Source: a virus. From it: DNA of 64,000 nucleotides. Shown here piece by piece: positions 11,210 through 54,153 of this stretch. The notes under the pieces were generated by a model. It was not told the DNA's origin. It worked only from the letters and a program-made list of their open reading frames with translations, and did no database searches. A program made the position numbers and the translations under genes. The stretch covers positions 62,001 to 126,000 of IMG/VR virus record IMGVR_UViG_3300035670_000022. One strand, written 5' to 3'. How positions within the stretch are numbered: the first letter of the stretch is position 1; every line of letters starts with the position of its first letter.

Positions 11210-11223
11210 TACTCTTCTCTGTT
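11210..11223 (-). promoter_or_regulatory. 14-nt promoter-like motif
   Basis: Exact AACAGAGAAGAGTA on the minus strand, 22 nt upstream of the 128-aa gene and just after the terminator at 11229-11259. Confidence 0.8.
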
Positions 11224-11500: not shown

Positions 11501-12271
11501 TTAGCGGCGACGACGACCGCTGGTGACAACTTTAGTCGCGCCACGGTTTACCGCAGGTAAGTCTACTTGAGACTTCCGTGCGGTCGGTGCGCCAGCTTTA
11601 ACGGCGGCTTGTTTGGCAACACCTACGGTACTGCCAATCAATTTACAGTCAGCCCATGCGACATTGGATAAGCCGACGGCGGGTTTTTTGGTCTGCGGAT
11701 TTAACCGCAATACCATGTCAAAGGTGACAATCCCGTCCGGGTTGGCTGCTACCACCCATAACCGCTTCGAAGAATGTTCGGTTGTGTACATGCACCCACG
11801 ACCGAAGTCTTCTTCATACTCTTCCCATAGTTCCGCATAGCGGATCAGGGATTCGAAGTCAGATTGGCTGATAACACCATTGTCAACAGACTCTTGACTG
11901 AATTCGATGGGCAAAGACCGCAGTCCTTTAATCCACTGTTGCCCTTTCGTCAGGGTTTTGCCTGTGGTGGCAGGCTGCATAGACCCATCAGGGTTCATAA
12001 CCCCTGACAGTCGTACTTTGACGGACACTTTTTCGGTGTTTTCGTCGTAGAAGGGGTCTTCTAAGACGATGCGAATCAAGTCGCATGATCCGTCTTCTGG
12101 TGCAAACTGCGAACGAGACATCAGACTTGTGTCAACAAAGAACTGATCGTACGCATCGCGCGCCTGCTCGATAAAACACTCGGGAATCCCCGCCAGTACT
12201 GTTTGCAGATCAGGATCTGCATATAGACCAGCGATGAACATTTCGGTGTTGGCGGCTTTGGCTTCTAACAT
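11501..12271 (-). CDS. Hypothetical protein with basic GRRRR tail
   Basis: 256 aa, not recognised. The acidic, mixed-structure body (about 1-210) is followed by an Ala/Lys linker and a C-terminal tail TKVVTSGRRRR. The 234-aa neighbour ends in a near-identical tail (TKVVGSGRRPK), suggesting a shared targeting or nucleic-acid-binding role. An AGGAG site precedes the start, with a motif copy 29 nt upstream. It was checked for single-stranded-DNA-binding features; none is clear. Confidence 0.65.
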   Translation of the reverse strand: MLEAKAANTEMFIAGLYADPDLQTVLAGIPECFIEQARDAYDQFFVDTSLMSRSQFAPEDGSCDLIRIVLEDPFYDENTEKVSVKVRLSGVMNPDGSMQPATTGKTLTKGQQWIKGLRSLPIEFSQESVDNGVISQSDFESLIRYAELWEEYEEDFGRGCMYTTEHSSKRLWVVAANPDGIVTFDMVLRLNPQTKKPAVGLSNVAWADCKLIGSTVGVAKQAAVKAGAPTARKSQVDLPAVNRGATKVVTSGRRRR

Positions 12272-12300: not shown

Positions 12301-12314
12301 CACTCTTCTCTGTT
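12301..12314 (-). promoter_or_regulatory. 14-nt promoter-like motif (variant)
   Basis: Minus-strand AACAGAGAAGAGTG, 29 nt upstream of the 256-aa gene. It is the first of three copies spaced 72 and 101 bp apart. Confidence 0.75.
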
Positions 12315-12372: not shown

Positions 12373-12386
12373 TACTTCTCTCTGTT
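12373..12386 (-). promoter_or_regulatory. 14-nt promoter-like motif (variant)
   Basis: Minus-strand AACAGAGAGAAGTA, the second of three copies upstream of the 256-aa gene. Confidence 0.6.
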
Positions 12387-12473: not shown

Positions 12474-12487
12474 TACTCCTCTCTGTA
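12474..12487 (-). promoter_or_regulatory. 14-nt promoter-like motif (variant)
   Basis: Minus-strand TACAGAGAGGAGTA directly abutting the T-run of the terminator at 12487-12529. Confidence 0.6.
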
Positions 12488-12529
12488 AAAAAAGGGGCAT
12501 GCGCCGCTGCATATGCAGGGGCGCATGCC
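12487..12529 (-). terminator. Strong rho-independent terminator
   Basis: 10-bp stem GGCATGCGCC/GGCGCATGCC capped by an inner CTGCAT/ATGCAG stem, followed by TTTTTTT on the minus strand. It follows the 234-aa gene. Confidence 0.92.
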
Positions 12530-12535
12530 AGCGTC

Positions 12536-13240
12536 CTATTTAGGACGCCGTCCGCTTCCGACCACTTTCGTGGTGGGAGCGGACTTTGCCCCTTTAGGGG
12601 CACCGCCCCCGAAGAGGGCGGAAACGTCCTCTACTGCAACGCAGTCGAGGGCGGCGTGCTCGGAGGGCTCTGCCCCTCCCGAGCCGCAAAAGACTGCATC
12701 ACTGCAGTCGAGGGCTGAGATATACAGCCCGTACTTGCCGCCGGCGGCAAGTTGGAACCGTACGGTTCCTTGCACCCACACAGGGTGCTCCTTTTGCCGA
12801 ACGGCAAAAGACTTCGAGTCTGCTTTAGCCTCGAAGTGATATTTGACCAGTTGGTCAAATATCTCCTCTGCCCCTTCTGGGGCAGAGTCGAACGCCACCT
12901 TGGCGTTCAACGTGAACCATTGGGGTTTACCCCCAAGGTTCGCGTCCTTCTGCGGAAGGACGGATTTTGGGTCGACAGACCCATAATCCACAGCCTTTCC
13001 GTGAAGGCTGATGCACGTAAGTGCAAACGACAGCACGTAAGTGCCGTCGTCGTACAGCGACGCGTCGGTAACGGTAAGCCCGAAGGGCTTCCGTTGACCG
13101 AAGAGATCGGGACCGATCTCTATGCAACTGTGTCCCGTTAGGAGACACAGTTGCATAGGCAGTCCGGAGGACTGCAGGTAGGCAGCGGCTGCTGCTTTGT
13201 CTTCGCCGAAGGTGGAGATAACGGAAGTGACGGTAGTCAT
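12536..13240 (-). CDS. Hairpin-tiled gene, hypothetical protein with SGRRPK tail
   Basis: 234 aa, unrecognised. The C-terminus TTKVVGSGRRPK matches the neighbour at 11501. The DNA is extraordinary: almost every base lies in a short perfect inverted repeat. Examples are 12733-12752 (10+10, no loop), 12791-12810 (9-bp), 12838-12863 (12-bp), 12866-12887 (9-bp), 12944-12961 (7-bp), 13103-13120 (8-bp), 13121-13157 (14-bp) and 13159-13175 (7-bp). The tiling continues into the leader. There is no Shine-Dalgarno before the ATG; a 7-bp hairpin (about 13248-13264) occupies that place. The opposite-strand frames here are shadows produced by the symmetry. Confidence 0.7.
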   Translation of the reverse strand: MTTVTSVISTFGEDKAAAAAYLQSSGLPMQLCLLTGHSCIEIGPDLFGQRKPFGLTVTDASLYDDGTYVLSFALTCISLHGKAVDYGSVDPKSVLPQKDANLGGKPQWFTLNAKVAFDSAPEGAEEIFDQLVKYHFEAKADSKSFAVRQKEHPVWVQGTVRFQLAAGGKYGLYISALDCSDAVFCGSGGAEPSEHAALDCVAVEDVSALFGGGAPKGAKSAPTTKVVGSGRRPK

Positions 13241-13277
13241 GACGTTGACGGCTCGTAGAGCCGTAAGAAAGTGCTTG

Positions 13278-13291
13278 CACTTCTCTCTGTT
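13278..13291 (-). promoter_or_regulatory. 14-nt promoter-like motif (variant)
   Basis: Minus-strand AACAGAGAGAAGTG, 37 nt upstream of the 234-aa gene. Its end lies in the small palindrome AAGTGCTTGCACTT. Confidence 0.7.
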
Positions 13292-13346
13292 TCTCCGGAC
13301 CCGAAGGGTCTGGAGACTCTCTCGAAGAGAGAGTTAAGAGTGCTTG

Positions 13347-13360
13347 CACTCTTCTCTGTT
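13347..13360 (-). promoter_or_regulatory. 14-nt promoter-like motif (variant)
   Basis: Minus-strand AACAGAGAAGAGTG, 69 bp upstream of the previous copy, again ending in a GCACTCT/AGAGTGC palindrome. Confidence 0.7.
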
Positions 13361-13452
13361 CCGCTCGTTAGAGCGGCATAGAAGACTTAGGGACCCGCGC
13401 GGAATAGGTAATGAGTTAGCTAGTTAGCGGGGCTAACTAGCAGAGGGTGATA

Positions 13453-16400
13453 TTACGAGAATTGGGTCTCCATCCAATCCAAAGCGATATCTGAAGTGTG
13501 GTAGGAGTCGACTAGCATGCTCCACATTTGCTCTGATGTAAGTTCGGAGTTAAATTCACAGTCTGTTGCAAAGTAGACTAAATCAGCTTTAGGAAAGCGA
13601 CTAGGTCCGACATACAAAGCAGCTTTATGCTGAGCCGGAATAGCTGTTACTTTACCTTTGCTGACGTAATACATATGCAGAACTCCCGGGCGGTTTATAG
13701 TCAAACCCTGGCTTTTCATTAGAGTCATAGCAAAACAAGGGTGCGCCGGGATTTGTCGGAAGGTTCCTATGGGACGACCCGACTTATCTTTAGGCCCTTC
13801 AAAGTCTGCATAGTCTAGAGTGATGACTTGCTTAGTAGTGTCTAGACGCACGTTGATAGAGTTTTTACCTAGTTTGGTAACTACTCCTGTGCTTCCATTA
13901 GCTGCAATAAGTGCACCGCCTCCGTTCTGTATGTTCTTACGAATCATTACAGGCATATCGACGCAGAAAGTCATCTCTTCTTCAATTGGATTAAAGATAG
14001 TGACAAACTCTTGCTTCTCGCCGTCGTAGGCTTTCTTCAGATACCAGTCTCCGAATTTACCTGTGACGTGGGCGCGATACGACTTGTTGTCTGCACCGTT
14101 AGCGATCATCTCAGCGGTCTTGCGGCTATTGTGCCGTTTTACTCCGATATTGTTGAAGTAGATGTGGATAGCATCTTCCGGAGCTTTGGTGGTAACACTA
14201 GCATCAAAGCGGTCTTTGATTAAGTTACCTTTCACGCCGGTTAATTGCAGCCGGTCCATACGTAACAGGTTAAGACAATCTACCCAGGCTTTATCTCCGT
14301 CGGCACGGATATTGTGCTTCAGGTTTATCATGACGAAGTCTCGGCGCTTAACAAAACTGCCGTAGCTGACATTGTTCTTTGCCCCTTTGATGAACACAGG
14401 TTCAAAGAAGAGGGAGCCTTTAACAGGTAAGAACTGCATTGGATCCCCTACTAACAGCCATTGAATGTTGATACCTTCTTCTATCGCAGCATCTTCGATG
14501 ATGTTTAAGAAGCGGTTGTCTACCATGCTGACTTCATCAACGATGACCATGAGTGGGCGTTTACCCAGGTAGTTCTTGGCGCTCTTGAAGAAGCGACTGT
14601 CTTTAACGTCTGACTTGAGTAGGTGGTACTCTTCGTACTCGCTACACTTTTTGCTCTCTGTTTTTTCGAATCCCAATTTGAGACCGAACATTGAGTTAAT
14701 TGTGCCGTCCCCACCGACGTTCATCACTGAAGTACCTGTAGAGCCAACAATGACGTAGGGGAGTTTGAGTAAGTCAAAGATGTGACGCGCTACTTCGACA
14801 CTGTAAGACTTGCCGCCTCCGCCTACACCGGTCAGCATAATATTGCTGCCATTAATAGCTTCAGCTACGACGTCTAACTGTCGAGCAGTCATGGTTTCTA
14901 GAGCGGGTAGGTAAGACTCCTCGTCTATAGTCGCATTGACGTTGGTGATTGCGTCGATAGCGGCTTGTAGAGCCTCGGGCTTACGTTTACGGTCTGCTTC
15001 TATCTCCATTTGGACTTTGGTCTCCTCTTGCTTAGCTTTTTTCTGTGCGTGTTTGCGTACCTTTTTAAGTGAGGGTACGATCTTTTTGCCTTTGCTGTTG
15101 ACAACAGGCTTAACAGATCCTACCTCTACTGTTTTAGGTTCTACAGATTTCTGTTTTTCCGCAACAGGGGTGGGAGTCTCTACTTTAAGAGACACTGCTT
15201 TAGAAAGAGGGATGTCTTCTGGTTCATCCTCGGGGGCATACATCTCAAAATCAGAAGATGTATCTTCGTCCTCGATTTGATCTTCAGACTCTTCAGGCGC
15301 TGTTAATACGTCAGACGCGTCTTCTGTGGTCATAGGTTTATCTTCGACCACTTTTACCGATGACAAAGAGACAAAATTAGAGATAGGGATCTCGTCATCC
15401 ATCTCGTAGTCATCATCAAAGTATACGCCTGTAGACTGATCTTCTTCTGTTTCGGGAACAGCAGCGTCAAAGCTGTCGTCTTGAGTACTTGTACTTTTCT
15501 CTGTTTCTACTAGAACCACAGGAATAGACTTGTATAAGTCGGTGATCTTTGTATGTAGAGTCTCAGGCATATCAGGCACTGTCTCAAGAATCATTAGCAA
15601 CATAGCAGCAACTTGGTTACCAGGATCAGGAGTCGACATAGGCTCTGCTTTGATAGCGGCAGAAGTGGGTTCAATCACTTCCGGCTGGTTGGGAGTAGTT
15701 GTTACCTCAACAGCAGGTTGCTCGTCAGCTGCTTCATCAAGTTCTATTAGAGCAGCTAACAAGTCTTCCTTCTTGCCGTTTAACTTAGGAACGGTATGCC
15801 CCGCGTCACGGTACTCTTTTAGCGCCTCTTTGATATCAGAGTAAGACAGAGAGGAGTACACGTCAGAAACAGAAGAGTCAACATCAGCTTCGACTTCAGC
15901 TTCGACTTCAGCTTCGACTTCAGCTTCATCTACTGGTTTAAGAGCAGGGTGATTAGTGTCGACCATCCAGTTGAGCATCTCAATGATGAGATCGCCGTGG
16001 CAAGGCAAAGGTGCGCAGAAGCAGACTAAGTCTTTTTGCTCTGCGTAGAGGCGGGCTAACTCATTCAGCACAACGCTGTCATTAGCATCTACCTTCTCTT
16101 GTAGCCAAACACGGTACAGTTCATAACACTCTTTCCGTGTGCCGTGTTTTCCAACGACAGCCTTGTTTGCTAGAACGCTACCTTTCTTGCCTTTACCAGG
16201 ACGTCCTATATACTCACCAAATACGCTGTCACCGTTTTTGATGTTTAAGACTTTCATAGTGCAGTGTCCTTCAGAAGATGTAGGAGGCTCAGAGTCTGAT
16301 TTAGGTTTAACCATACGTACAGTGACGTTATAGCGGACACCTTCACCACCTTCGTTGCCTTCATAGCCGTGGCGGGCGTAGCGTTTGTTGCCATAGAAGA

Positions 16401-19400
16401 CAATCAAATCACCATCGCCTACCTCGTATTTCTCTCCGTCTATTTGGAAGATACCGCTCTGGCCGAAGCTGAAAGACACAATAGGAGCATCTACTTCTTC
16501 GTCTTTATCGACGTGAAGGTTCAGCTTCTGTGCGCCTGCATATCGATTAATTAGACAGGTTTGAGCCTCGTACCCATCAAAGATGTCCAGTTGGGCGACT
16601 ATCTTTTCAGCAGTCTCTTTTAGAATGTTAGGCATCTCAACCACAGGCGAACCAGACGGCTGAGTGTTAAGGTATCGACCTTTACCTTTATTCCATACCC
16701 AGAATTGCTGACCAGCACAGGTATAACTGTAGCTCTTGGCTGTAAAGCGCGTCTTCTCACCATCTTCAAAGGTCTCTTCAATGGCTGCTCGTAGCTCATC
16801 ATAGATTCCCTCGTCTTGGCAATAGGATTGCTGAATGTACAGCCCGTCTTCGGTGTATACCGTCAACTCTTCTTTGTCGGACTCGGTGCGAAGCGCGTCT
16901 CGAACTTTCATAAGAAGGACGCCTTGCATGTTCTTACCTTGACGTTTCTTATTCACGCCCCAGAACGTGTCCCAGGGAGAGAGGTGTACAAGGTCGATAT
17001 CTTCTGTTTCTAACAGTTGAGTACGAGCAGGCTCATGGCTGAATTTGCCAAGCAGGACCTCGTACATTACATCGACTTTTACTTGTTCCCAGTCTTTTCG
17101 TAGCCTTACTTTTGCACCTTTAGCCTTTGCCTGTTTACCGTTCATAGCCGCGAACTCTTTAATAAGAGCGTGGCTCGGGTTGAGCACTTTGGCACACTGA
17201 TAGGCTCCCTCTGCTGTTGCATACTCTACGCCTTTGTATGTACAGGGTGCCCCCAGGAAGTTACTAAACTCTTTATACGTAGGCGTATAGGAGTTAAATA
17301 AGATGCAGTCGCCTTCCCAAGTGTCTTTATCTGCCGGATGCTCTTGTTGGGCTTCTACTTCCTGTTGTGCTTTAAGCATAGCCACGTTGATCACAGTGGT
17401 GTTCTTAACACGTTTGATGTTCTTCTTGCTACCAGGAGAAACGCCGTCCCAGATGACGAGACTCTCATCACAGTTACGATGCATCTTTTCATCCCGAGCA
17501 GTGAAGTCACCGTAGACAGCATAGGTTTCAAAGTCACCTACATTGTTGCGGCATCCTTTGCGGGAAGAGTACCAAACGCGCACGTTGGTGACACCTTGCT
17601 CAAAGAGATAGCTTTGTACAAGCATGTCTACACCAGCAGCATCACCAACGTTGAAGTTAAAGCCCTGATCGATATAGCTGTCGATCACATCTAAGGCTTC
17701 TTCAGGTAGACGTTTGATAGAACGGCTGCCAGAGATCACCACTTGGGTGTGATTTACCTCTAACTCTTCCGTAGACGTATCCTCTTCAGTGTCAGAAGAG
17801 TCAACAGATTCACCGCCGTCTCCATCGTCGTTAGGCTCATCGTCGGTCGGCTCTACACCGCCGTCAGAGTCATCTTCATCAGAGTCGTCTTCTTCTTCTT
17901 CGGTAATACCATCGTTAAAGTTATGGATCACAGAGAAGAAGTTGTCTTTACTCTCTTCGACAGAGTGGATCTCTTTCAAGAAGAAGTTTAGGTCGGCATC
18001 AGACCACTCGAGAGTGCTGATTTGAGTGTAGTCGTACATCTCTTTACCGAGAACTTCGTCTAGCTGAGAGAGAGACATTAGCGGAACGTTGGTTTGAAGC
18101 ACTTTAGCCCCTGTGGGGTGAGACTTAAGTGCGTTTAGCCACGCTATACTTTCTTGATAGATGACAGTATCCCCAAAGTAGAAGTTACCGCGGCCACCTT
18201 GGAAGATCGTATAAAGCAAGTAGGAAATCCCGTAGGTGGGGGTCTCTTTACCTCGCTTAACTACGTAATAGTCTTGCAGGAGGTGCATAGCAATTGTTAC
18301 CTCTTCCGCTAATTCGCAGTTAGCGCCGAGTTCAGCCAACGTTTCTTCTACTTTGTCCTCTAGGGCACGCTCTAAACGCATTTCTCCCAGCAGGGTTTCT
18401 AGAACTGTGCAGTTAGCAACAGCAACCTCATCGGTAACATTGCATTCTCGCAGGTTCAGAACCATGAGGTCGATCGTCTTGGTGCGAGGCATATCCAGAC
18501 GGGTGCTACGTAGACGATCATAGGCTTCTGCTACATCAAAGCGAATAAACTCGTCATCCCAGTTGGATAGGATTCCATGTAGCTCTTGAGTAACTTCAGC
18601 ATTGGCAAAGTCTTTAATCTTAACGGACTGTTTGCTGCAGCCGTCGTAGATAGATTTACCAAACATGATCGGCTTTAAGAATCGTTCCCAGAGAGATACA
18701 CCGCCGGGGCTGAATCCGCCGAGCATAATCTCGTACACTTCTGCCAAGACCAGCATGAGTTTGTTGATCTGAGTTTGACGATACTTGTCTAGCTCTAAAG
18801 GCACGAATGCACTTAGACCTTCAACACCGTCTTCACCAAACAAGTCCAACTTATCTAACTCGCCGATGATGCTAACCGCAAGCATACCGAGCATGTATGC
18901 AGCGTACATAACACCAACACCGACGTGCTGAATGCTGTATGCCAGGAAGTTGTATTTGACTAGATCTGAGCTGTTGATCATAGCCTTCTCTGGCAGTGCT
19001 TCTGCTAACTTGTTGATAACTACAGATGCATCTTTGTAAGACTTGATGGTGTAGTGGTCAGCAGCGTAATCCCCGCATGTGGGAGAGAACATGTCCATAC
19101 CTATAGCAGCGGAGCGCAGTTCACGAACCTTTTCATAGGTGGTGATGTGCTTAAGGCTCAGGTGCTTACAGTGAGTGATAAAGTGGTTATCACCATCATC
19201 GTCACCACCGTCTAGGTTGACAGACATAGCACTGACGCCGAATTGTACGGGGCTAATCTCGTACGCAAGAAGAGTATTGTCTTGAACCTCATCAGCAAAA
19301 GGTACACGTCGTTGTCCAAGATAGACCTCGACAGTTTCTTTACCGGTTTCGGTCTCGACTTCAACTTTCTCCCATACCTCTTCGATTAAACGAACCCGTT

Positions 19401-22400
19401 CAATCGGACCCATAGGCATAGGCGCACGGTTACCGCACGTAATTACACCTTCGGCTACAGACTGGCGGTCTAGAGGAATACCGCTACGTAGACACTCTTG
19501 ATATGGAGAGGAGACGACGTTGGTTTCTAGAATCCAGACTTCTCCTACAGGAATAGCAGGGTGACCGATACGCTTCGCACCGACTGCTTTATCGCCAGAG
19601 AAATACTTGCGGGAGTTCTTAGATGTAGCTAGAGAGTTAAGCACACCGCCGACCTGGTTAAGGGCGATCTGTTGCTTTTCGCTACCACCATTGATACACG
19701 GGATAAGTATTTCGAAGAAGAACATGGAGACGAAGTCCAAGTTATCATCGCTCTTGCGAGTCAGCTTAGAAAAAGCCAGCATGGCAGGGAGCCACATGGA
19801 CACTTTACCTTCTCCGGTTTCAAAGACGAAGACCATATCCTGAGTTGCTTCGGCAACCAGGCGGAAGAGGTTGTCTTGATGCGGATCAATCTGTCCAGGC
19901 TCAATACCGACTTTGCGTAGACGCTCATCCATAAGATCCTGACACTCGTTGCTGGTGTCATCTCCACCAAAGCAGATGCCTTCTTCATCAACGATGATGG
20001 ACACTACTTTGAGATTAGGATTAATGGTATTCCCAGCATTGAACGCGGCTAGCGCTTTAGCACGGTACAGCGCTTCTTTACCGCAGGACACCATACGACG
20101 CTGCTCAGCCAATACATCTTCGTCGTCCCCAGCTACAATGCTCAAGGACATGATATAAGGCAACAACTGAACGGAGGTCGTTACGGCTTCTGCTACCGTA
20201 GAAGACTCGAATAGCTCTACGTTGTAGAGTTGAGCTTCAGGTACGGAGAGGTACATTACGCCACGTTGTGCGACTTCTACCACTTTTCCGTCTTTAAGAA
20301 CAAAGGCGAGAATGTTGCTTTCCCACTCAATTTCTTTCTGCTCAGAGACTACGTAGAGGTTATCTCCTAAGTTGGCTAATTCAGGTAGGTACTCTAAATA
20401 GTTCTCTACGTGATACCACGCTGCCTTCCGTGCTTTTTCGTTCTCTTCGGTGTCAGGAAGTAATCCGGCGGCTACTTTCTCTTGGTAGAGGTCATACATA
20501 ACACGACCCATACCTTCAGCCTGTATCCAGTGAAGCCAGCGGGCTTGACCGAAGATGCTGTCGAAGTACTTATACATCTCATCATAGATACCAGCAGCAA
20601 CAGCAGCGGGCTCGATGATAAGCACGGGTTTGCCGTCGACCAGATTCTCGTGTCCTACCAACTGACGGTTGATGTCAGAGATATATTCACGAAGGGTCTT
20701 AACCACGTCTGTTTCTACTTCGTTGTAGAACGCAGTGTTGGCAATTATGAAGCACATCGCATAGCCCAAGTCGAGCTTAAGGCTATCTTGCAGGTGTAGT
20801 CCGTGTACAGTGATCTCGTCCGAGTTAAGGTCAGAGTTTAGATCATTGAACAAGATAGCAGGCGTAGCCGTAAAGAACTGCGACTTGTTAACACTACGAG
20901 ACTTCATATCAAACTCGCGGCGTTTGATGAAGTACTCGATGCTGAGATACTCAGTGCTGTTATCCATACCGACAACAACGCGCCAGCGGAAGTAGGTTAA
21001 CTGACCCTCTACACGGTGTTGATGGTAGATGGGAATCGTTCCGTGTACGCCGAAGAGGATCTCTTTACCTGTTCCGTTAACGAGCACCTCATCTTGCGGA
21101 GTGACATACATCCAGCCGTCTTCGCTCTCTACACTGTCCCAGGTGTTTTCGATCACACCGGTAACATTAGTTTGAGTAAAGTCGAACGGAGAACCGTCTA
21201 CTATATCAAACGTGTTACGGACAATTAGAATGCGTTGATCCGGGTTTGCTTCCGGTTTGTCTTTCTGTTCACCCAAGAACGCGGACATACCAGGCAGGTT
21301 AACGTGGCTCGGCGCATAGGCAGTCTTATCTAACCAGCCGTAGGTGGCATACTTCTGGTCGATAAGTTTAGCCGCAGAAGGCTGCTCGTCTTTGACGCTC
21401 TCAGCTTGAGCCATCCACAAAGACACCCGCTTCAGGAGTTTCTTCGCCTTCAACGAGTTGACGATTACTTTTCCTGCTTCGATTTCGCAGCCAAAGTTGC
21501 TGACGATCTTAGCGAACAGGTTCGGTGCATGCTTGCTGACCAAGTCTAGATTGACGTGACCCAAGGCACCAGCAACAAACTGTCCTTTGGTGTGGTGGAA
21601 GTCTAACCCATACTGCTCATGGGCCATTTCCATCACAATGTCCATCACTTCAGCAATTTCGATAGAGTCATCAAAGACAGCTGCAGTTTCGATCATTTGA
21701 AACTCTTCGTCTATGTCTGCCTCTACACCGCTGTAGCGTTCAGGTAGGACTTTAGCAGCCTTACCCTCTAGAGCAACCCACTTCCCATTACTGTTCAGCG
21801 GTGTGCGCTCTTTGAACATCACGGTGGAGAAGGTGTTGATGAGCAAGTGGTGTGCAGCACCGTTTTGGTCTAACACTCGGTCCGTAGTCATCTTAAAGAT
21901 GTTGCCCATCTTTTGCAGACATGACTTCACATTCTCTAATGTGGTAGAGAAAATGCCGGCGCTGCCAGACCAGTTAGAGAGGATAGGCAAGTACACGAGC
22001 CAGATGAAGTACATAAACATACTCAGGCTGGTGACTAACTTGATTTCTACCTCGTAGGGGCTGCCCTTAGGATCGGCTTTCTTCTCTTCTTTTGTCTTTT
22101 TACGTCCGTTGACAACAAGACAGCTATTGAAAGCACGACCACGCCAGTCATAGACAGTACCGTCGTCATCGAAGTAGAAAGCAGCAGCGCCGTCTATCTT
22201 AAGCGCTTTCATGCCATCTATCTCTACGAAGTCCAAGACTCCTTTGATATCGACAGCCTTACGGTTACGGCTCCGCTTTGTCTTCTTACCAGCGACTTCC
22301 ATCATGTCTTGAATGATGGTGATAACACCTTCAATCTCAGACAGTTGCCAGTCGTAGTCTAAGATTGGCATGTCGATGGTTGAGCAGGCATACTTGTCCC

Positions 22401-25400
22401 GCTCAGAGCAGAACCCACGTAAGTAGTAGGCTACTGCGTAAGCAGCTTTTTGAGCAGCACTACATTTCGTAGGGGGCTCTTGTCCCCGGAACAGCTCTTC
22501 AAAGACTGCCGTTTCGTTCAGCATCATGTCGTTTACGACTTCTTCTACTGTATAGAAGTCCTCGCTACGATTTCCGCTGGTCGGGTGATTTAACGCCTCG
22601 TACAGACTTTGTAGCTCTTCAGCGTAACCAGCTAGAACTTTGGGTTCTGCTTTAGCCGCAGGAGGTGTCGGAGGAGTAGAAGTGACAGGAGGAGTAGCGG
22701 GCGGAGCAGCTATTTTAGAAGGAGTAGAAGTAGCTACTTTAGAAGGAGTAGACTTTGTCACTTCCGCTTTAGACTTCACGCGACGACGACCACTCTTAGG
22801 TAGAGAAGTAGTAGTCTTAGCAGAGCGCTCTAAGAACGTGAAGTAGTTGTTATCGCTCCGGGGAGTTTCGAAGTCGATTAACTCTTCTACTACATCGCAC
22901 GGAACGAAGTAGGCTTCAATCCGGTCGCAGTACGGACGGTATTGTCCTTGACTGAGAACACCGTTCTCGTCTGGACGACGATTATCCGTCAGAATATCTA
23001 CTCGTCCGACGAGAAGCAAATAGTATTGCTCCACTTCTAACCCAGGGATGCCTCCATGTTCGCTCTGCAGGTTATCTAACGAGTTGTGGACAACGATCGT
23101 TTGCCCATGTTTTTCTAGAGCGGAAACAAACCGTGTATTTCCTGTGTACACGGCTTTACGGATGATGTTCCGAACGGAAGAAGCGGTAGCGCCTGCTTCC
23201 GCACGACCTGCGACTTTGTCTTTAAGGTCGTGCTCGTTATTAACCAACGACTCGAAGTTCATATGGTGCGACACCTTGTCGTTAAACACCACATTTTCGA
23301 TGTTGGTGTAGGCAGCATCGCGGAACTGCCAACTTGCCTTCTTGGCGTTGGCGATCGGAGCATACAAACGAGCCGGGGTCGCTCCGATAGTAGAAGCAGT
23401 CCAACCTTCTTTAGCTTCTTGTTTGTAGTCGAAGCCTAAGAAGTTGCTGATGGGCAGCACCCGATGTTTGCTGTCGTCCGCCGCAGCATATAACTCGGCA
23501 TAGTGCGGTTTTGCTTTCGGCACAGGGTTAAAGTGTGCGTTAGCGTTACACCGCTGCTCTCCGTAGCGACAGAGGACTACATAGAGAGGATCGCTCTCTT
23601 GAATGGGAGCTGCGTCTACGTGCATTAATGTGAACGCAGGGATGCAACCCATCTCTTCAGGAGACTTAGTAAAGTGCATAGGAGCACCTACTTTTATCTC
23701 CATGTTTTTGTTTGCGCTATTACTGGTGCGACGCTTCATTGTTTGCTCCTTATTAATGGTAGCCAGTCCTATTTCTAGGGGTGTTACGCCTAGTTCGCTG
23801 ACAATGTCAGACCATTTAGATCCGTTTGTCAGCAAGGACCGAATGTTGCTTGCTGTCTCAGCGTCTACCAAGTCAGCTGGGTCAAAATGACCAGCACGGT
23901 AGACCTCCAGCAAATAGCTGGCGACAGTATCATCCTTGGTCTCACTCTTCGCCTCCTTACGGTAGGTAGATGCCAAGTCTGCTAGCATGTCCTCTAGCTT
24001 TTCTTCTGTTTTCAAGACACGTGTCCAGATGTCAATCACGATCTTGTGACGATGACTTAGCTGATTTTGTTCAGCTTTTGGTTTTTCTGTCTTTTTACTC
24101 TTCTCTGTTTTTGCTACAGGCTGTTTGTTAGGCACCCCGTAGTTGAGAGCCACTTCTAGGGAAGTAACTCCCAATTCCGTCTCTAGGTCTTTATAGGCCA
24201 CTCCTTCTGCCTTCAGATCTTGAATCTGCTCGTGTATCTCTGTAGATACATAGGCAGAGCAGTCTACCAACCCAGCGTCGTATGCTTTCTTTAGATACCC
24301 GACGATGGTTGAGTATGCCGCCTCACTTTTGTTAATTGCTCGGTAGCGTCGGACTAAGGAGTCCAACTTCTGCTGCAGATCGACGTTTTTAGCGTCTATC
24401 TTCTCCCACAGTTCAGCTATCTGCTGAATTGATGATGGAGTTTTCTGTGCGGACGTGGTCGGAGTTCCTCGTTTTTTGGCATACTTACTCATTGGACGCG
24501 GAGTTTTGCTCCGCTTGAAGACCATAGTTGCCTCCGGTACACCCTCTGCCGATGCAGCACATCGTGCCTCGGCGAGAGCCATAAACTCGGCCGGTACGGC
24601 CACGGGTTCAGATTCTGAACCGTTCAGAATCTCAGCCATGATGGCTGTCCCTGCGGCGTAGGCGGCTTCTGCCTTTTGTTCTTCCGTCTTATTGGCTAGG
24701 TAGACGGTTTTGTCTACCTTTTTGATGTTGCCAATCATCTTCCGACCTTCCGCCGCCCGGCGACGGTTTTGGATAGCGAGAGGCAACTCCGCCTCCTCTT
24801 GGGCGCGAAGGGCCCGTTGGCGACGGACTACAGAAGCCGGGATGGGGGCCTCGGTGCCGTTCGCCAACCAAATGGCGTTGTTACCTGCACGGAGGGCAGC
24901 GGACTTAGCGGCTTTGGTGATGACCGCATACTTAGCCGCCCGCTCGGATGCAATGTAAGCAGCCAGGAGTTTAGCCTCCGCCCGACGTTGGGCTTTGGCT
25001 AGTTGCTTCTCATACCCGGACTTAGTCTGGGGTTTGAGGTTACGGCGTTGTACCGCTTTGTTGCGACGTTGACGTTTAACCCGCTGGGTGCGGGCAATTG
25101 ATTGATTCACAGTCATTGATTTACGGACACGACGACGTGCCCGGGTAGAGGTGGTACCAACAGTGGTAGCGATGTCGGCAATGACATCAGCTACGGCGAC
25201 CATTACGGTCACGTTGGCATAGGCAAAAGTGCCCACACCGCCTGCACGTTTTTGTGCAGTGCCTTTGCGGGGGGCAGTGAGACGGAGAACCGCGTCCAAG
25301 GTGAATGCGGCACGGTTAGCCGTGCGGCGCTCAGTGTAGTGAGCAGAGATGACATCAGAGATGTCATTGGCTACGGCACCAGCGAATGCCATAGTAGCAG

Positions 25401-26001
25401 CGGTAGTGAGGGTAGCAGGGGCAAAGCGTACAACTTTGTGCGCAGTGTAGACACGGGGAGCACCCGTGGGGGTGCTGACGGTGTGGGTAGGGGCAACCCA
25501 GGAGGGTGCCGGAGTGGTGAATACACCTTTGAATCCGGGGGCAGCTTGCTTAGGAGCAGCTTTGGGAGCCCACACTACACGAGTGTTCCAAGCTGCTGCT
25601 TGGGCTGCCATAGGGTCAGCAACACCCCATCCTTTGATCTCCGCCATGCGGAGGTCAATATCACCAGCAGCGGTGATAGCGTCAGCGGTAGCTACAGCGG
25701 CAGCTACAGAAGAGGAAGCAGGAGCCTTGTAGCCAGTCCAGGTGCGGACTACATCCACCTTCTTGCCTTTCTTCTGCACGTGTACGTGCACTTTCCCGTA
25801 GTAGGAAAGGAACTCTTGGCGGGGTAGGCGGGCACCTACCGCAGAGTTCTTAATTACAGCGCCGGCGTTCCAGCGTTGGCTGGAACGGCTCCAGCTGTTA
25901 GTGTGTACGGTGCGCGGGGAGACCTCACGGACAGCTTGCTGAATCGAGCGAGCGAAGAAAGAGATAACGGAAACGGAAACGGACATTTTGAAGTTAGACA
26001 T
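13453..26001 (-). CDS. Giant multidomain protein: DxDGD RNA polymerase core, SLOG, NADAR, AlkB-like, DUF4326, SAP-like, PIF1 helicase
   Basis: 4182 aa. Order: Ala/Lys/Arg-rich N-terminus (1-520); two ~100-aa repeats, each ending ELGVT[SP]LE (about 525-750); a long polymerase region with N2191-R-A-P and D2267-D-D-G-D2271, matching the NRAP...DFDGD pair of RNA polymerase beta-prime. Then an acidic linker (2690-2748); SLOG/DUF2493 with ISGSRS (2750-2875); NADAR with EFSNF and GKNMQG (2897-3035); AlkB-like dioxygenase with H3163-x-D, H3211 and RYNVTVR (3050-3238); DUF4326 with YIGRP and CFC...CHGD (3249-3344); SAP-like helices (3380-3425). After a disordered acidic stretch comes a PIF1-like helicase (Walker A around K3731, D3822-E, MTLMKSQG, ALYVGPSR). 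No protease was seen. An internal ATG (23739, residue 755) has a perfect AAGGAG site, so a shorter product is likely. Confidence 0.88.
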   Translation of the reverse strand: MSNFKMSVSVSVISFFARSIQQAVREVSPRTVHTNSWSRSSQRWNAGAVIKNSAVGARLPRQEFLSYYGKVHVHVQKKGKKVDVVRTWTGYKAPASSSVAAAVATADAITAAGDIDLRMAEIKGWGVADPMAAQAAAWNTRVVWAPKAAPKQAAPGFKGVFTTPAPSWVAPTHTVSTPTGAPRVYTAHKVVRFAPATLTTAATMAFAGAVANDISDVISAHYTERRTANRAAFTLDAVLRLTAPRKGTAQKRAGGVGTFAYANVTVMVAVADVIADIATTVGTTSTRARRRVRKSMTVNQSIARTQRVKRQRRNKAVQRRNLKPQTKSGYEKQLAKAQRRAEAKLLAAYIASERAAKYAVITKAAKSAALRAGNNAIWLANGTEAPIPASVVRRQRALRAQEEAELPLAIQNRRRAAEGRKMIGNIKKVDKTVYLANKTEEQKAEAAYAAGTAIMAEILNGSESEPVAVPAEFMALAEARCAASAEGVPEATMVFKRSKTPRPMSKYAKKRGTPTTSAQKTPSSIQQIAELWEKIDAKNVDLQQKLDSLVRRYRAINKSEAAYSTIVGYLKKAYDAGLVDCSAYVSTEIHEQIQDLKAEGVAYKDLETELGVTSLEVALNYGVPNKQPVAKTEKSKKTEKPKAEQNQLSHRHKIVIDIWTRVLKTEEKLEDMLADLASTYRKEAKSETKDDTVASYLLEVYRAGHFDPADLVDAETASNIRSLLTNGSKWSDIVSELGVTPLEIGLATINKEQTMKRRTSNSANKNMEIKVGAPMHFTKSPEEMGCIPAFTLMHVDAAPIQESDPLYVVLCRYGEQRCNANAHFNPVPKAKPHYAELYAAADDSKHRVLPISNFLGFDYKQEAKEGWTASTIGATPARLYAPIANAKKASWQFRDAAYTNIENVVFNDKVSHHMNFESLVNNEHDLKDKVAGRAEAGATASSVRNIIRKAVYTGNTRFVSALEKHGQTIVVHNSLDNLQSEHGGIPGLEVEQYYLLLVGRVDILTDNRRPDENGVLSQGQYRPYCDRIEAYFVPCDVVEELIDFETPRSDNNYFTFLERSAKTTTSLPKSGRRRVKSKAEVTKSTPSKVATSTPSKIAAPPATPPVTSTPPTPPAAKAEPKVLAGYAEELQSLYEALNHPTSGNRSEDFYTVEEVVNDMMLNETAVFEELFRGQEPPTKCSAAQKAAYAVAYYLRGFCSERDKYACSTIDMPILDYDWQLSEIEGVITIIQDMMEVAGKKTKRSRNRKAVDIKGVLDFVEIDGMKALKIDGAAAFYFDDDGTVYDWRGRAFNSCLVVNGRKKTKEEKKADPKGSPYEVEIKLVTSLSMFMYFIWLVYLPILSNWSGSAGIFSTTLENVKSCLQKMGNIFKMTTDRVLDQNGAAHHLLINTFSTVMFKERTPLNSNGKWVALEGKAAKVLPERYSGVEADIDEEFQMIETAAVFDDSIEIAEVMDIVMEMAHEQYGLDFHHTKGQFVAGALGHVNLDLVSKHAPNLFAKIVSNFGCEIEAGKVIVNSLKAKKLLKRVSLWMAQAESVKDEQPSAAKLIDQKYATYGWLDKTAYAPSHVNLPGMSAFLGEQKDKPEANPDQRILIVRNTFDIVDGSPFDFTQTNVTGVIENTWDSVESEDGWMYVTPQDEVLVNGTGKEILFGVHGTIPIYHQHRVEGQLTYFRWRVVVGMDNSTEYLSIEYFIKRREFDMKSRSVNKSQFFTATPAILFNDLNSDLNSDEITVHGLHLQDSLKLDLGYAMCFIIANTAFYNEVETDVVKTLREYISDINRQLVGHENLVDGKPVLIIEPAAVAAGIYDEMYKYFDSIFGQARWLHWIQAEGMGRVMYDLYQEKVAAGLLPDTEENEKARKAAWYHVENYLEYLPELANLGDNLYVVSEQKEIEWESNILAFVLKDGKVVEVAQRGVMYLSVPEAQLYNVELFESSTVAEAVTTSVQLLPYIMSLSIVAGDDEDVLAEQRRMVSCGKEALYRAKALAAFNAGNTINPNLKVVSIIVDEEGICFGGDDTSNECQDLMDERLRKVGIEPGQIDPHQDNLFRLVAEATQDMVFVFETGEGKVSMWLPAMLAFSKLTRKSDDNLDFVSMFFFEILIPCINGGSEKQQIALNQVGGVLNSLATSKNSRKYFSGDKAVGAKRIGHPAIPVGEVWILETNVVSSPYQECLRSGIPLDRQSVAEGVITCGNRAPMPMGPIERVRLIEEVWEKVEVETETGKETVEVYLGQRRVPFADEVQDNTLLAYEISPVQFGVSAMSVNLDGGDDDGDNHFITHCKHLSLKHITTYEKVRELRSAAIGMDMFSPTCGDYAADHYTIKSYKDASVVINKLAEALPEKAMINSSDLVKYNFLAYSIQHVGVGVMYAAYMLGMLAVSIIGELDKLDLFGEDGVEGLSAFVPLELDKYRQTQINKLMLVLAEVYEIMLGGFSPGGVSLWERFLKPIMFGKSIYDGCSKQSVKIKDFANAEVTQELHGILSNWDDEFIRFDVAEAYDRLRSTRLDMPRTKTIDLMVLNLRECNVTDEVAVANCTVLETLLGEMRLERALEDKVEETLAELGANCELAEEVTIAMHLLQDYYVVKRGKETPTYGISYLLYTIFQGGRGNFYFGDTVIYQESIAWLNALKSHPTGAKVLQTNVPLMSLSQLDEVLGKEMYDYTQISTLEWSDADLNFFLKEIHSVEESKDNFFSVIHNFNDGITEEEEDDSDEDDSDGGVEPTDDEPNDDGDGGESVDSSDTEEDTSTEELEVNHTQVVISGSRSIKRLPEEALDVIDSYIDQGFNFNVGDAAGVDMLVQSYLFEQGVTNVRVWYSSRKGCRNNVGDFETYAVYGDFTARDEKMHRNCDESLVIWDGVSPGSKKNIKRVKNTTVINVAMLKAQQEVEAQQEHPADKDTWEGDCILFNSYTPTYKEFSNFLGAPCTYKGVEYATAEGAYQCAKVLNPSHALIKEFAAMNGKQAKAKGAKVRLRKDWEQVKVDVMYEVLLGKFSHEPARTQLLETEDIDLVHLSPWDTFWGVNKKRQGKNMQGVLLMKVRDALRTESDKEELTVYTEDGLYIQQSYCQDEGIYDELRAAIEETFEDGEKTRFTAKSYSYTCAGQQFWVWNKGKGRYLNTQPSGSPVVEMPNILKETAEKIVAQLDIFDGYEAQTCLINRYAGAQKLNLHVDKDEEVDAPIVSFSFGQSGIFQIDGEKYEVGDGDLIVFYGNKRYARHGYEGNEGGEGVRYNVTVRMVKPKSDSEPPTSSEGHCTMKVLNIKNGDSVFGEYIGRPGKGKKGSVLANKAVVGKHGTRKECYELYRVWLQEKVDANDSVVLNELARLYAEQKDLVCFCAPLPCHGDLIIEMLNWMVDTNHPALKPVDEAEVEAEVEAEVEADVDSSVSDVYSSLSYSDIKEALKEYRDAGHTVPKLNGKKEDLLAALIELDEAADEQPAVEVTTTPNQPEVIEPTSAAIKAEPMSTPDPGNQVAAMLLMILETVPDMPETLHTKITDLYKSIPVVLVETEKSTSTQDDSFDAAVPETEEDQSTGVYFDDDYEMDDEIPISNFVSLSSVKVVEDKPMTTEDASDVLTAPEESEDQIEDEDTSSDFEMYAPEDEPEDIPLSKAVSLKVETPTPVAEKQKSVEPKTVEVGSVKPVVNSKGKKIVPSLKKVRKHAQKKAKQEETKVQMEIEADRKRKPEALQAAIDAITNVNATIDEESYLPALETMTARQLDVVAEAINGSNIMLTGVGGGGKSYSVEVARHIFDLLKLPYVIVGSTGTSVMNVGGDGTINSMFGLKLGFEKTESKKCSEYEEYHLLKSDVKDSRFFKSAKNYLGKRPLMVIVDEVSMVDNRFLNIIEDAAIEEGINIQWLLVGDPMQFLPVKGSLFFEPVFIKGAKNNVSYGSFVKRRDFVMINLKHNIRADGDKAWVDCLNLLRMDRLQLTGVKGNLIKDRFDASVTTKAPEDAIHIYFNNIGVKRHNSRKTAEMIANGADNKSYRAHVTGKFGDWYLKKAYDGEKQEFVTIFNPIEEEMTFCVDMPVMIRKNIQNGGGALIAANGSTGVVTKLGKNSINVRLDTTKQVITLDYADFEGPKDKSGRPIGTFRQIPAHPCFAMTLMKSQGLTINRPGVLHMYYVSKGKVTAIPAQHKAALYVGPSRFPKADLVYFATDCEFNSELTSEQMWSMLVDSYHTSDIALDWMETQFS
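15492..15505 (-). promoter_or_regulatory. 14-nt motif inside the giant gene
   Basis: Minus-strand AACAGAGAAAAGTA in frame (encodes T-E-K-S), upstream of the helicase part. It may be a coincidental match or an internal promoter. Confidence 0.35.
15885..15927. repeat. 12-bp tandem repeat in the giant gene
   Basis: Units of CAGCTTCGACTT repeat about 3.5 times, encoding (EAEV)n between DUF4326 and the SAP-like segment. A flexible acidic spacer. Confidence 0.85.
23737..23752 (-). promoter_or_regulatory. Internal ribosome site and start in the giant gene
   Basis: AAGGAG followed by a 6-nt spacer (CAAACA) and ATG at 23739, in frame (residues KEQT-M755). It is better than the site before the annotated start at 26001, and suggests the polymerase part can be translated on its own. 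Confidence 0.6.
24096..24109 (-). promoter_or_regulatory. 14-nt motif inside the giant gene
   Basis: Exact AACAGAGAAGAGTA on the minus strand, 357 nt upstream of the internal start at 23739. Encodes T-E-K-S in frame. Confidence 0.5.
24610..24632. repeat. Palindrome copy 3
   Basis: Perfect 11+1+11 inverted repeat with core TTCTGAACCGTTCAGAA, located within the coding sequence of the giant gene. Confidence 0.9.
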
Positions 26002-27608: not shown

Positions 27609-27636
27609 AGGTGCCCCCTCTATATAGAGGGGGCAC
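27604..27636 (-). terminator. Rho-independent terminator
   Basis: Perfect 26-bp palindrome (27611-27636; GTGCCCCCTC plus complement around TATA) followed by CTTTTTAC on the minus strand. Confidence 0.92.
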
Positions 27637-29958: not shown

Positions 29959-30561
29959 CTACATTAGTAGCTTCTTAGCTATAGCCCACTTCTGGGCAGA
30001 TACCTGCCCTTCGAATGAGCGCAGTAGGAGCGCCCAATCGTGTTTTACCCGCTTTTCCCACATGTTAGGTGGGAGGTGGTGCCCCTCCTCCGCAAAGGAG
30101 AGGTCTATCAGTCGTGCCCCTTCGGGCCAGACCAATATGTTGTTCGCATGGCTATCGCCATGCGTCCAACCGTGGGCATGTAGCCCACTTAGGGCTGCAC
30201 AGGCGTGCAGTAAGAGCACGCCAAAGGTATACGGGGAGGTTCCCGTAGAGGTAGCAACCTCTAGCAAGGTGCGCCCCCGCACCTTCTCGAGCACCAGCCG
30301 TGTGCGGCTGGAGTCTGGGTGCATCTTTGGGATGATGCTTCCCTGAAGAGGGTGGAGTACTCCATATATGAGATACTCCTCTTGGAGTTCATCCTCTGCC
30401 CAGCTATCCCCGGGCTTAGCGTTTTTAACCACCCATCCCCGGGTGGTAGATTCGGTCACGAGACCGAATCGCCCCGACCCAATGAGGGGGGTAGTAGCGG
30501 TAGTAGCGGTAGTAGCGGTAGTAGCGGTAGTAGTCATTTGATATGCACTGTCACAGGGCAT
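29959..30561 (-). CDS. Mini protein-kinase-like protein
   Basis: 200 aa, smaller than a standard kinase. A glycine loop LIGSGRFGLV (about residues 26-35), WVVKNAK with the ATP-binding Lys, an acidic helix, TRLVLEKVRGRTL hinge, catalytic loop HGDSHANNILV (about 135) and IDLSFA in place of the DFG segment. This matches the compact eukaryotic-like/RIO-Bud32-like kinase fold. The substrate could be a host protein or translation factor. The N-terminal (TTA)n tract comes from a 9-bp tandem repeat. A start at 30537 after the first eight codons is possible. Hairpins (e.g. 9-bp GATTCGGTC/GACCGAATC) tile the coding DNA. Confidence 0.75.
   Translation of the reverse strand: MPCDSAYQMTTTATTATTATTATTPLIGSGRFGLVTESTTRGWVVKNAKPGDSWAEDELQEEYLIYGVLHPLQGSIIPKMHPDSSRTRLVLEKVRGRTLLEVATSTGTSPYTFGVLLLHACAALSGLHAHGWTHGDSHANNILVWPEGARLIDLSFAEEGHHLPPNMWEKRVKHDWALLLRSFEGQVSAQKWAIAKKLLM
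30491..30535. repeat. 9-bp tandem repeat in the kinase-like gene
   Basis: Four or more copies of GTAGTAGCG at the 5' end of the gene, giving a Thr-Thr-Ala tract. A contraction or expansion would keep the frame. Confidence 0.85.
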
Positions 30562-30616: not shown

Positions 30617-31018
30617 TTATTCAGAATAGGGTTTGATACTTGGCTTACTCTGTTCTTCGTAATAGAGCTCAGCCATTGCCTCGGCGAGGCGCTTGTTATA
30701 TGCGTCCTCGAGCCAAGTAGACATCTCTACGTAGAGGTAGTAGATGTCAGAATCCTTCCGGATTCTGTCTTCAGAAGGAAAGGTTCCTTCAATGTAGCGA
30801 TGAGCGAAATACGCCATAGCTTCTTTGGTCCGAAGCGTGTTATAGTCGTCGGCGTTTAAGTCCACAAGGGACTTCTTGCCCCAGACTATATAGGCGAGGC
30901 CATGGTCACCGCCATCATGGCGGTCATATCCGGTGCCTTTGTTGGCACCTATTTGTTGGGAGAAGTGTCCCAACATTTCGGACCAAACTAAACGGGCGAT
31001 GGATTTGAAGTTAAACAT
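30617..31018 (-). CDS. Hypothetical protein
   Basis: 133 aa from ATG 31016-31018 (MFNFKSIARLVW) with a GGAG site; an upstream ATG at 31054 would translate the leader. Charged, aromatic-rich and helical, with a HDGGDHG turn near residue 35. Not recognised. The coding DNA is hairpin-tiled (TGTTGGGA/TCCCAACA, AGAATCC/GGATTCT, ACCGCCA/TGGCGGT). Confidence 0.65.
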   Translation of the reverse strand: MFNFKSIARLVWSEMLGHFSQQIGANKGTGYDRHDGGDHGLAYIVWGKKSLVDLNADDYNTLRTKEAMAYFAHRYIEGTFPSEDRIRKDSDIYYLYVEMSTWLEDAYNKRLAEAMAELYYEEQSKPSIKPYSE

Positions 31019-31053
31019 TAGGAACTCCGGGGTGTGAAAGGTAATTAGCCCCA

Positions 31054-31090
31054 TAAAAGGGGGCCCCTACACTGATTAGGTGTAGGGGCC
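31054..31090 (-). terminator. Rho-independent terminator
   Basis: Perfect 11-bp stem GGCCCCTACAC/GTGTAGGGGCC with a 7-nt loop, then CCCTTTTATG on the minus strand. No clear minus-strand gene lies upstream of it. Confidence 0.88.
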
Positions 31091-54139: not shown

Positions 54140-54153
54140 TACTCTTCTCTGTT
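54140..54153 (-). promoter_or_regulatory. 14-nt promoter-like motif
   Basis: Exact minus-strand AACAGAGAAGAGTA, 25 nt upstream of the SWIM gene; the only copy seen in the head-tail module. Confidence 0.8.

Follow-up and report, generated by a model that had tools for sequence, protein, structure and literature searches.

Short hairpins tiled through a small protein-coding transcription unit of an uncultured phage

What could turn a protein-coding gene into a nearly continuous series of short hairpins while leaving its reading frame intact? The question is raised by a small minus-strand transcription unit of an uncultured double-stranded DNA phage, represented in IMG/VR by the 155,913-bp viral contig IMGVR_UViG_3300035670_000022 (G000), of which bases 62001–126000, a stretch of 64,000 nucleotides (nt) referred to here as the window and used for all coordinates unless otherwise indicated, were analysed. 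The unit occupies window positions 12496–13441 and consists of a leader, an open reading frame (ORF) of 234 codons and a terminator, along which about 34 hairpins stand side by side, mostly 0–3 nt apart, with 70% of the bases paired in a local fold. The transcription unit is real and codes for protein, yet almost all of its short quasi-palindromes have become near-perfect hairpins.

A leader, gene and terminator tiled with hairpins

The stems of the unit are 6–16 bp long with loops mostly of 0–6 nt, and most of the hairpins are perfect or nearly so. All of the inverted repeats quoted in the original prediction, which was made from the sequence alone, were found where it had placed them, and the one at 13103–13120 proved to be part of a larger perfect 9-bp stem (13102–13121, loop of 2 nt). 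Within the ORF (12536–13240, minus strand, ATG at 13240; individual hairpins are given without strand), the longest hairpin has a perfect 14-bp stem and a 9-nt loop (13121–13157), and there are also an AT-rich perfect 12-bp stem (GATATTTGACCA/TGGTCAAATATC, 12838–12863), a loop-free perfect 10-bp palindrome (12733–12752), further perfect 9-bp stems with loops of 4 nt (12866–12887) and 2 nt (12791–12810), a loop-free perfect 8-bp palindrome (12754–12769), perfect 8-bp stems with loops of 3 nt (12890–12908) and 4 nt (12943–12962), and a perfect 8-bp stem that spans the stop-codon end of the ORF (12531–12548). The leader (13241–13441, minus strand) carries hairpins at 13248–13264, 13270–13283, 13293–13315, 13316–13334, 13336–13353, 13360–13376 and 13419–13441, and the last hairpin of the unit (12496–12529, minus strand; 10-bp stem, inner CTGCATATGCAG) precedes seven T at 12487–12493, resembling an intrinsic terminator. 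According to the original prediction, stem-loops would follow one another almost without a break through gene and leader; the tiling is real, but it is broken around the start codon, where the largest gap of the unit (13176–13247, minus strand, from −7 to +65) contains no stem of at least 6 bp with a loop of at most 8 nt.

The density of hairpins, which had been claimed to lie beyond chance, was not reproduced when codons were shuffled under an unchanged protein: the ORF contains 19 perfect stems (at least 6 bp, loop at most 8 nt) against a mean of 3.0 and a maximum of 8 in 200 protein-preserving codon shuffles, and 12 stems of at least 7 bp against a mean of 1.0 and a maximum of 4. The minimum free energy (MFE) of the ORF was −402, compared with −270 ± 6.4 in codon shuffles keeping both protein and codon content (z −20.5), and that of the whole 961-nt region was −531 kcal/mol, compared with −339 in dinucleotide shuffles (z −26.8). 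Sense and antisense strands were about equally extreme (z −26.8 and −24.6), with no clear asymmetry. Across 2.04 Mb of related and control phage DNA the top 600-bp windows fall in this unit, with 11 stems of at least 7 bp per window where the maxima for lambda, MS2 and Qbeta were 3, 3 and 5, respectively. Unpaired runs of at least 8 nt numbered 3 in the unit and 10 in an equal-length capsid segment. No known RNA family was matched in an Rfam search.

The 234-aa protein found no match in Pfam or PHROGs, and no homologue of it was found by tblastn in phages, by pattern scans of viral and genome contigs or in 16 related or candidate records. A DNA-level search of phages with the unit and scans with the neighbouring genes and the adjacent 4182-aa ORF were likewise empty, and structure prediction for the protein gave a predicted local distance difference test (pLDDT) score of 33, which was of no use.

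Coding constraint, pairing character and recurrence

By codon usage the 234-aa frame scores best of the six, at a modest absolute score; it is open across every hairpin, and the hairpin spans fall in all three classes modulo 3, features on which a translational bypassing element was rejected. When the codon phases of facing arms were pooled from six hairpin-rich coding segments, two of them from other phages, phases 1 (1-1), 2 (2-2) and 3 (3-3) occurred in a ratio of 15 : 34 : 16, compared with about 14 : 27 : 24 in codon shuffles (our own sums). Phase 3, in which wobble faces wobble and first codon positions are tied to second, is depleted (16 of 65 against about 24 expected), a sign of protein constraint. 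Translation starts are also spared: among 12 genes of hairpin-rich regions a single hairpin touches −7 to +30 of the start, where 7.7 were expected by rotation (P = 0.001), and among the four tiled genes there is none, against 4.5 expected (P = 0.003), with P = 0.07 in a more conservative test of whether the start codon lies inside the largest gap in each of the four units. Because start codons are kept clear, hairpins seem to be tolerated in gene bodies and not at ribosome entry.

On the mRNA strand, G-U pairs make up 3.6% of pairs in the unit against 12.3% in matched shuffles (z −6.6), a depletion of 3–4 fold, and G-U pairs were likewise depleted in three further tiled genes described below, encoding 200 aa, 145 aa and, in the related phage G006, 112 aa (4–6% against 12–13%). 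The GC share of pairs in the main unit is 0.62 (0.60 in shuffles) and stem GC is 0.64 (0.67 in codon shuffles), while the 200-aa and 145-aa genes show a slight rise in pair GC (z 2.7 and 2.4); because the pairs of the main unit are not GC-enriched over shuffles, complementarity rather than stability is favoured in its stems. Pairing is also local, pairs spanning at most 40 nt contributing 94% of the energy in the unit and 72–77% in MS2, Qbeta and ordinary genes of G000. The coding RNA of the E. coli RNA phages MS2 and Qbeta, which is under selection for structure, is likewise folded more than its shuffles, but its pairs are longer-range, G-U pairs reach 11–14% (14–16% in the phages' own shuffles), perfect stems of at least 7 bp number 2–4 per kb against 17.7 here, and the folding z_E of RNA phages is −7 to −11.5 against −29.7 in the unit; long-range pairing of the RNA-phage type with ordinary G-U content was not found in the unit. 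On the basis of the G-U depletion, the lack of GC enrichment and the purely local pairing, we argue that the stems were made by a DNA-level process of arm matching.

Weaker hotspots were detected at 24.2–26.0 kb and 29.3–31.1 kb, all on the minus strand. The second hotspot comprises a 200-aa kinase-like ORF (29959–30561; 11 perfect stems against a shuffle mean of 1.6 and maximum of 5) and a 145-aa ORF (30617–31054; 8 stems against a mean of 1.3 and maximum of 5; MFE z −10), and the third comprises the first 1.2 kb of the 4182-aa ORF (24802–26001; 13 stems against a mean of 2.5 and maximum of 8; MFE z −10.6). The structural genes on the right side of the window showed ordinary hairpin behaviour. 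When MyWq, LMM01, lambda and other relatives were scanned for hairpins, no comparable site emerged except in G006 and, as a mild case, LMM01 gp061 (7 stems against a maximum of 6 in 300 shuffles). In G006, an independent IMG/VR record, a 112-aa gene unrelated to the 234-aa ORF (L055:3997–4335, minus strand) has 7 stems, one of 17 bp, against a maximum of 5 in 500 shuffles (MFE z −6.9); the counterpart of the 32.8-kb gene of the window, a homologue, is under 1 kb away, which puts the 112-aa gene near the place of the 31-kb hotspot, and a search for its homologues returned only itself. In G013, a 205-kb relative, the 218-aa gene that follows the homologous helicase-containing ORF (L108:12179–12835) has no stems; tiling is thus not conserved at this position, the correspondence being positional only and the similarity not significant. 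Homology of the 234-aa protein with this 218-aa gene or with LMM01 gp063, plausible by eye, was rejected (z 1.5 and 0.7).

Proposed template switching and its alternatives

The reading that we favour, and in which our confidence is evenly balanced, is that short inverted repeats were repeatedly homogenised by template switching at quasi-palindromes and that the outcome was filtered by coding and translation initiation. A nascent strand, in replication or repair, would switch template inside a local hairpin and copy one arm onto the other, and repeated switching would extend each weak local hairpin until it abutted its neighbour, in keeping with the abutting hairpins observed. Selection would act as the filter, with protein-tolerable changes surviving and hairpins that close the translation start being removed, and the folded mRNA would be a by-product at the least and might also be beneficial. 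Saturation of just this unit might reflect transcription-coupled exposure of single-stranded DNA. Arms must be close for switching, so short-span pairs would be expected to dominate, as they do; stochastic gain would also lead to distinct stems, to different tiled genes in G000 and G006 and to a stemless counterpart in G013, as was found.

Template switching at quasi-palindromes perfects imperfect local inverted repeats, those in coding DNA included, in E. coli (PMC7202029) and yeast (PMC8604942, PMC3820800), and in one yeast assay it occurred only under high transcription (PMC3820800). The unit would be similar in this respect, but such mutagenesis is known as single events, and a saturated gene was not found in the literature located. 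The nearest precedent is provided by palindromes in the mitochondrial genes of nematomorphs (Mikhailov et al. 2019, PMC6649704), whose repeats measure 15 bp or more (mean 43, up to 142) with spacers averaging 37 bp. The authors propose template switching or repeat conversion for them, on the argument that conversion, and not selection on structure, is indicated when perfect arms are unaccompanied by a surplus of imperfect ones. Both systems have perfect inverted repeats beyond chance in an intact coding gene, with both arms coding, no shared repeat family and a bias against the most constraining codon phase. The nematomorph palindromes are gained and lost sporadically; here the positional counterpart in G013 is stemless (homology not significant) and G006 has a different tiled gene. 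Unlike the long arms of animal mitochondrial DNA, the phage stems are of 6–16 bp, about 34 of them packed through leader, ORF and terminator, and the commonest codon phase is phase 2 here and phase 1 in nematomorphs.

Several observations weigh against template switching. Set against the near-absence of imperfect repeats that characterises the nematomorph palindromes, the picture is mixed: among stems of at least 9 bp, one-mismatch stems (7) are as common in the unit as perfect ones (5), although the other hotspots have 12 perfect stems and 2 with one mismatch, and G-U pairs are depleted. Tiling ends sharply at the upstream border of the unit, with no stem in 13501–14200, and a purely replicative process would not predict a sharp border at a transcription unit. 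Nor can the level of expression by itself be the cause, since the capsid gene is unaffected. Low G-U content could also be explained by strong selection on very short hairpins. Finally, the collections searched yielded no close relative of the gene and no intermediate or ancestral form that might show a switch event.

Selection on the message itself is the main rival and might alternatively be responsible: in the form of a chain of short hairpins the mRNA would be read, stored or protected while offering little single-stranded RNA to host or defence ribonucleases, with stems too short to be good RNase III substrates and the ribosome window left open. We regard this as possible and rather doubtful: the tiling extends from the leader through the ORF to the terminator and stops at the borders of the unit, unpaired runs are few, start codons are clear and folding goes far beyond that of RNA phages, but G-U pairs are depleted and not tolerated, the pairs of the main unit are not GC-enriched, the two strands are about equally extreme, the positional counterpart in G013 has no stems and start-codon avoidance shows only that hairpins are harmful there. 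Tentatively, then, the gene of this DNA phage might have been recoded by selection into short end-to-end hairpins around an open ribosome window, armouring its mRNA against ribonucleases, those of host and defence alike, or allowing control by structure. RNA stability, one of the meanings first suggested for the locus, may play a part, but the character of the pairing favours arm matching in DNA. Template switching and selection for a folded mRNA can act together.

A function in DNA, where cruciforms or single-stranded hairpins might serve, for instance, as sites of priming, recombination or replication control, is improbable in our view; it would suit the symmetric Watson-Crick pairing, the short loops and the adjoining helicase-containing ORF, yet it leaves the match to one transcription unit and the clear start codon unexplained, the sequences are diverse with no common recognition motif and no origin signal was found. 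Colonisation by a hairpin-forming element, also raised in the original prediction, was not supported, and the spread of a mobile palindromic element of the REP, RPE or Volvox type is very improbable: although hairpins occur in coding and non-coding DNA alike and a few short sequences recur (GCACGTAAGTGC twice), the region has only short or weak repeat families, no two of the 11 stems of at least 7 bp in the densest window are alike, and the reading frame stays open across all of the hairpins, whose spans are not confined to multiples of three. Rickettsia RPE, the palindromes of Volvox organelles (PMC2670323) and the bypassing elements of Magnusiomyces likewise place hairpins within or between coding sequences, but these are sequence families or untranslated insertions, whereas the phage stems are distinct and translated in frame; the common sequence expected of copies of a REP/RPE/Volvox-type element was not found. 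Chance, composition or an assembly artefact is hardly credible, for although the region is GC-rich (58%), composition is excluded by the codon and dinucleotide shuffles and an independent record (G006) carries the same kind of gene. Nor is chimeric amplification or assembly known to produce distinct perfect hairpins within a single intact ORF.

Genomic setting and significance

The portal and capsid proteins of the phage are similar to those of the cyanobacterial phages Microcoleus phage My-WqHQDG and Microcystis phages Ma-LMM01/MaMV (22–29% identity), and the capsid is 46–66% identical to those of the uncultured IMG/VR phages G001, G003, G006 and G013. Because portal and capsid group with cyanobacterial phages, the host is probably, though not certainly, a cyanobacterium. 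The hairpin unit is flanked by the 4182-aa ORF (13453–26001, minus strand), which stops at 13453, and by a 256-aa gene that starts at 12271. The 4182-aa ORF carries a NADAR domain, an AlkB-like 2OG-Fe(II) oxygenase and an AAA_30/PIF1-type helicase, together with a region with a VNLDGGDDDGDN motif that is RNA-polymerase-like by eye only; this region had no Pfam or PDB match, a PDB search with it giving nothing useful. A 2276-aa ORF of G013 has a related helicase end and a DSDGD motif, and LMM01 gp064 has a DADGD motif. Elsewhere, at L002 13723–16143 (contig coordinates, minus strand), an 806-aa ORF matches a ribonucleotide reductase barrel domain and an intein splicing domain.

The leader of the unit contains a AACAGAGAGAAG motif (13280–13291, minus strand), repeated upstream of many genes, and a second copy, AACAGAGAAGAG (13349–13360, minus strand). 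The general form, AACAGAGAAGAGTAMA, stands before many gene starts, often about 25–50 nt upstream of the ATG, with 13 matches in the window against 1.5 expected, including those at 12303–12314, 12375–12386, 11212–11223 and 54142–54153 (minus strand), and about 30 near-matches in the contig. It is a candidate phage promoter or leader element, and we take its AACA core to resemble the promoters of jumbo-phage RNA polymerases. An exact palindrome, TTCTGAACNGTTCAGAA, which resembles a dimeric operator site, occurs at 2411, 8154, 24613 (within the 4182-aa ORF) and 61270 (4 against 0.01 expected), with near-copies elsewhere in the contig. Terminator-like hairpins of the type GCCCCT...AGGGGC, e.g. 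GCCCCTCTATATAGAGGGGC, lie outside the main ORFs at 27611, 29344, 29595, 29915 and 31062. In G006, several small genes within positions 1–4400 of L055 share a layout: ahead of each stands a GGCTgtaaGGAGCC-like hairpin that includes the ribosome site, and behind each a similar palindromic terminator (CCCCACTCAACTGAGTGGGG type).

The contigs of three aligned relatives (the 97.5-kb end of G001 and the starts of G003 and G006) stop between the equivalents of about 30 and 36 kb in the window and have no equivalent of 13 kb. Hairpin-dense DNA may hinder metagenome assembly, and a warning follows that such regions may break metagenome contigs.

Searches of the open-access literature turned up no phage gene in which short perfect hairpins stand end to end throughout. 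The present gene shows how far a coding sequence can bend to self-complementarity and yet stay open. If template switching is the cause, the phage lineage would be a natural system in which a usually rare type of mutation has saturated a gene, and its rate, the polymerase involved and the link with transcription would be testable; if the folding is selected, the unit would be the equivalent in nature of superfolded mRNAs made synthetically.
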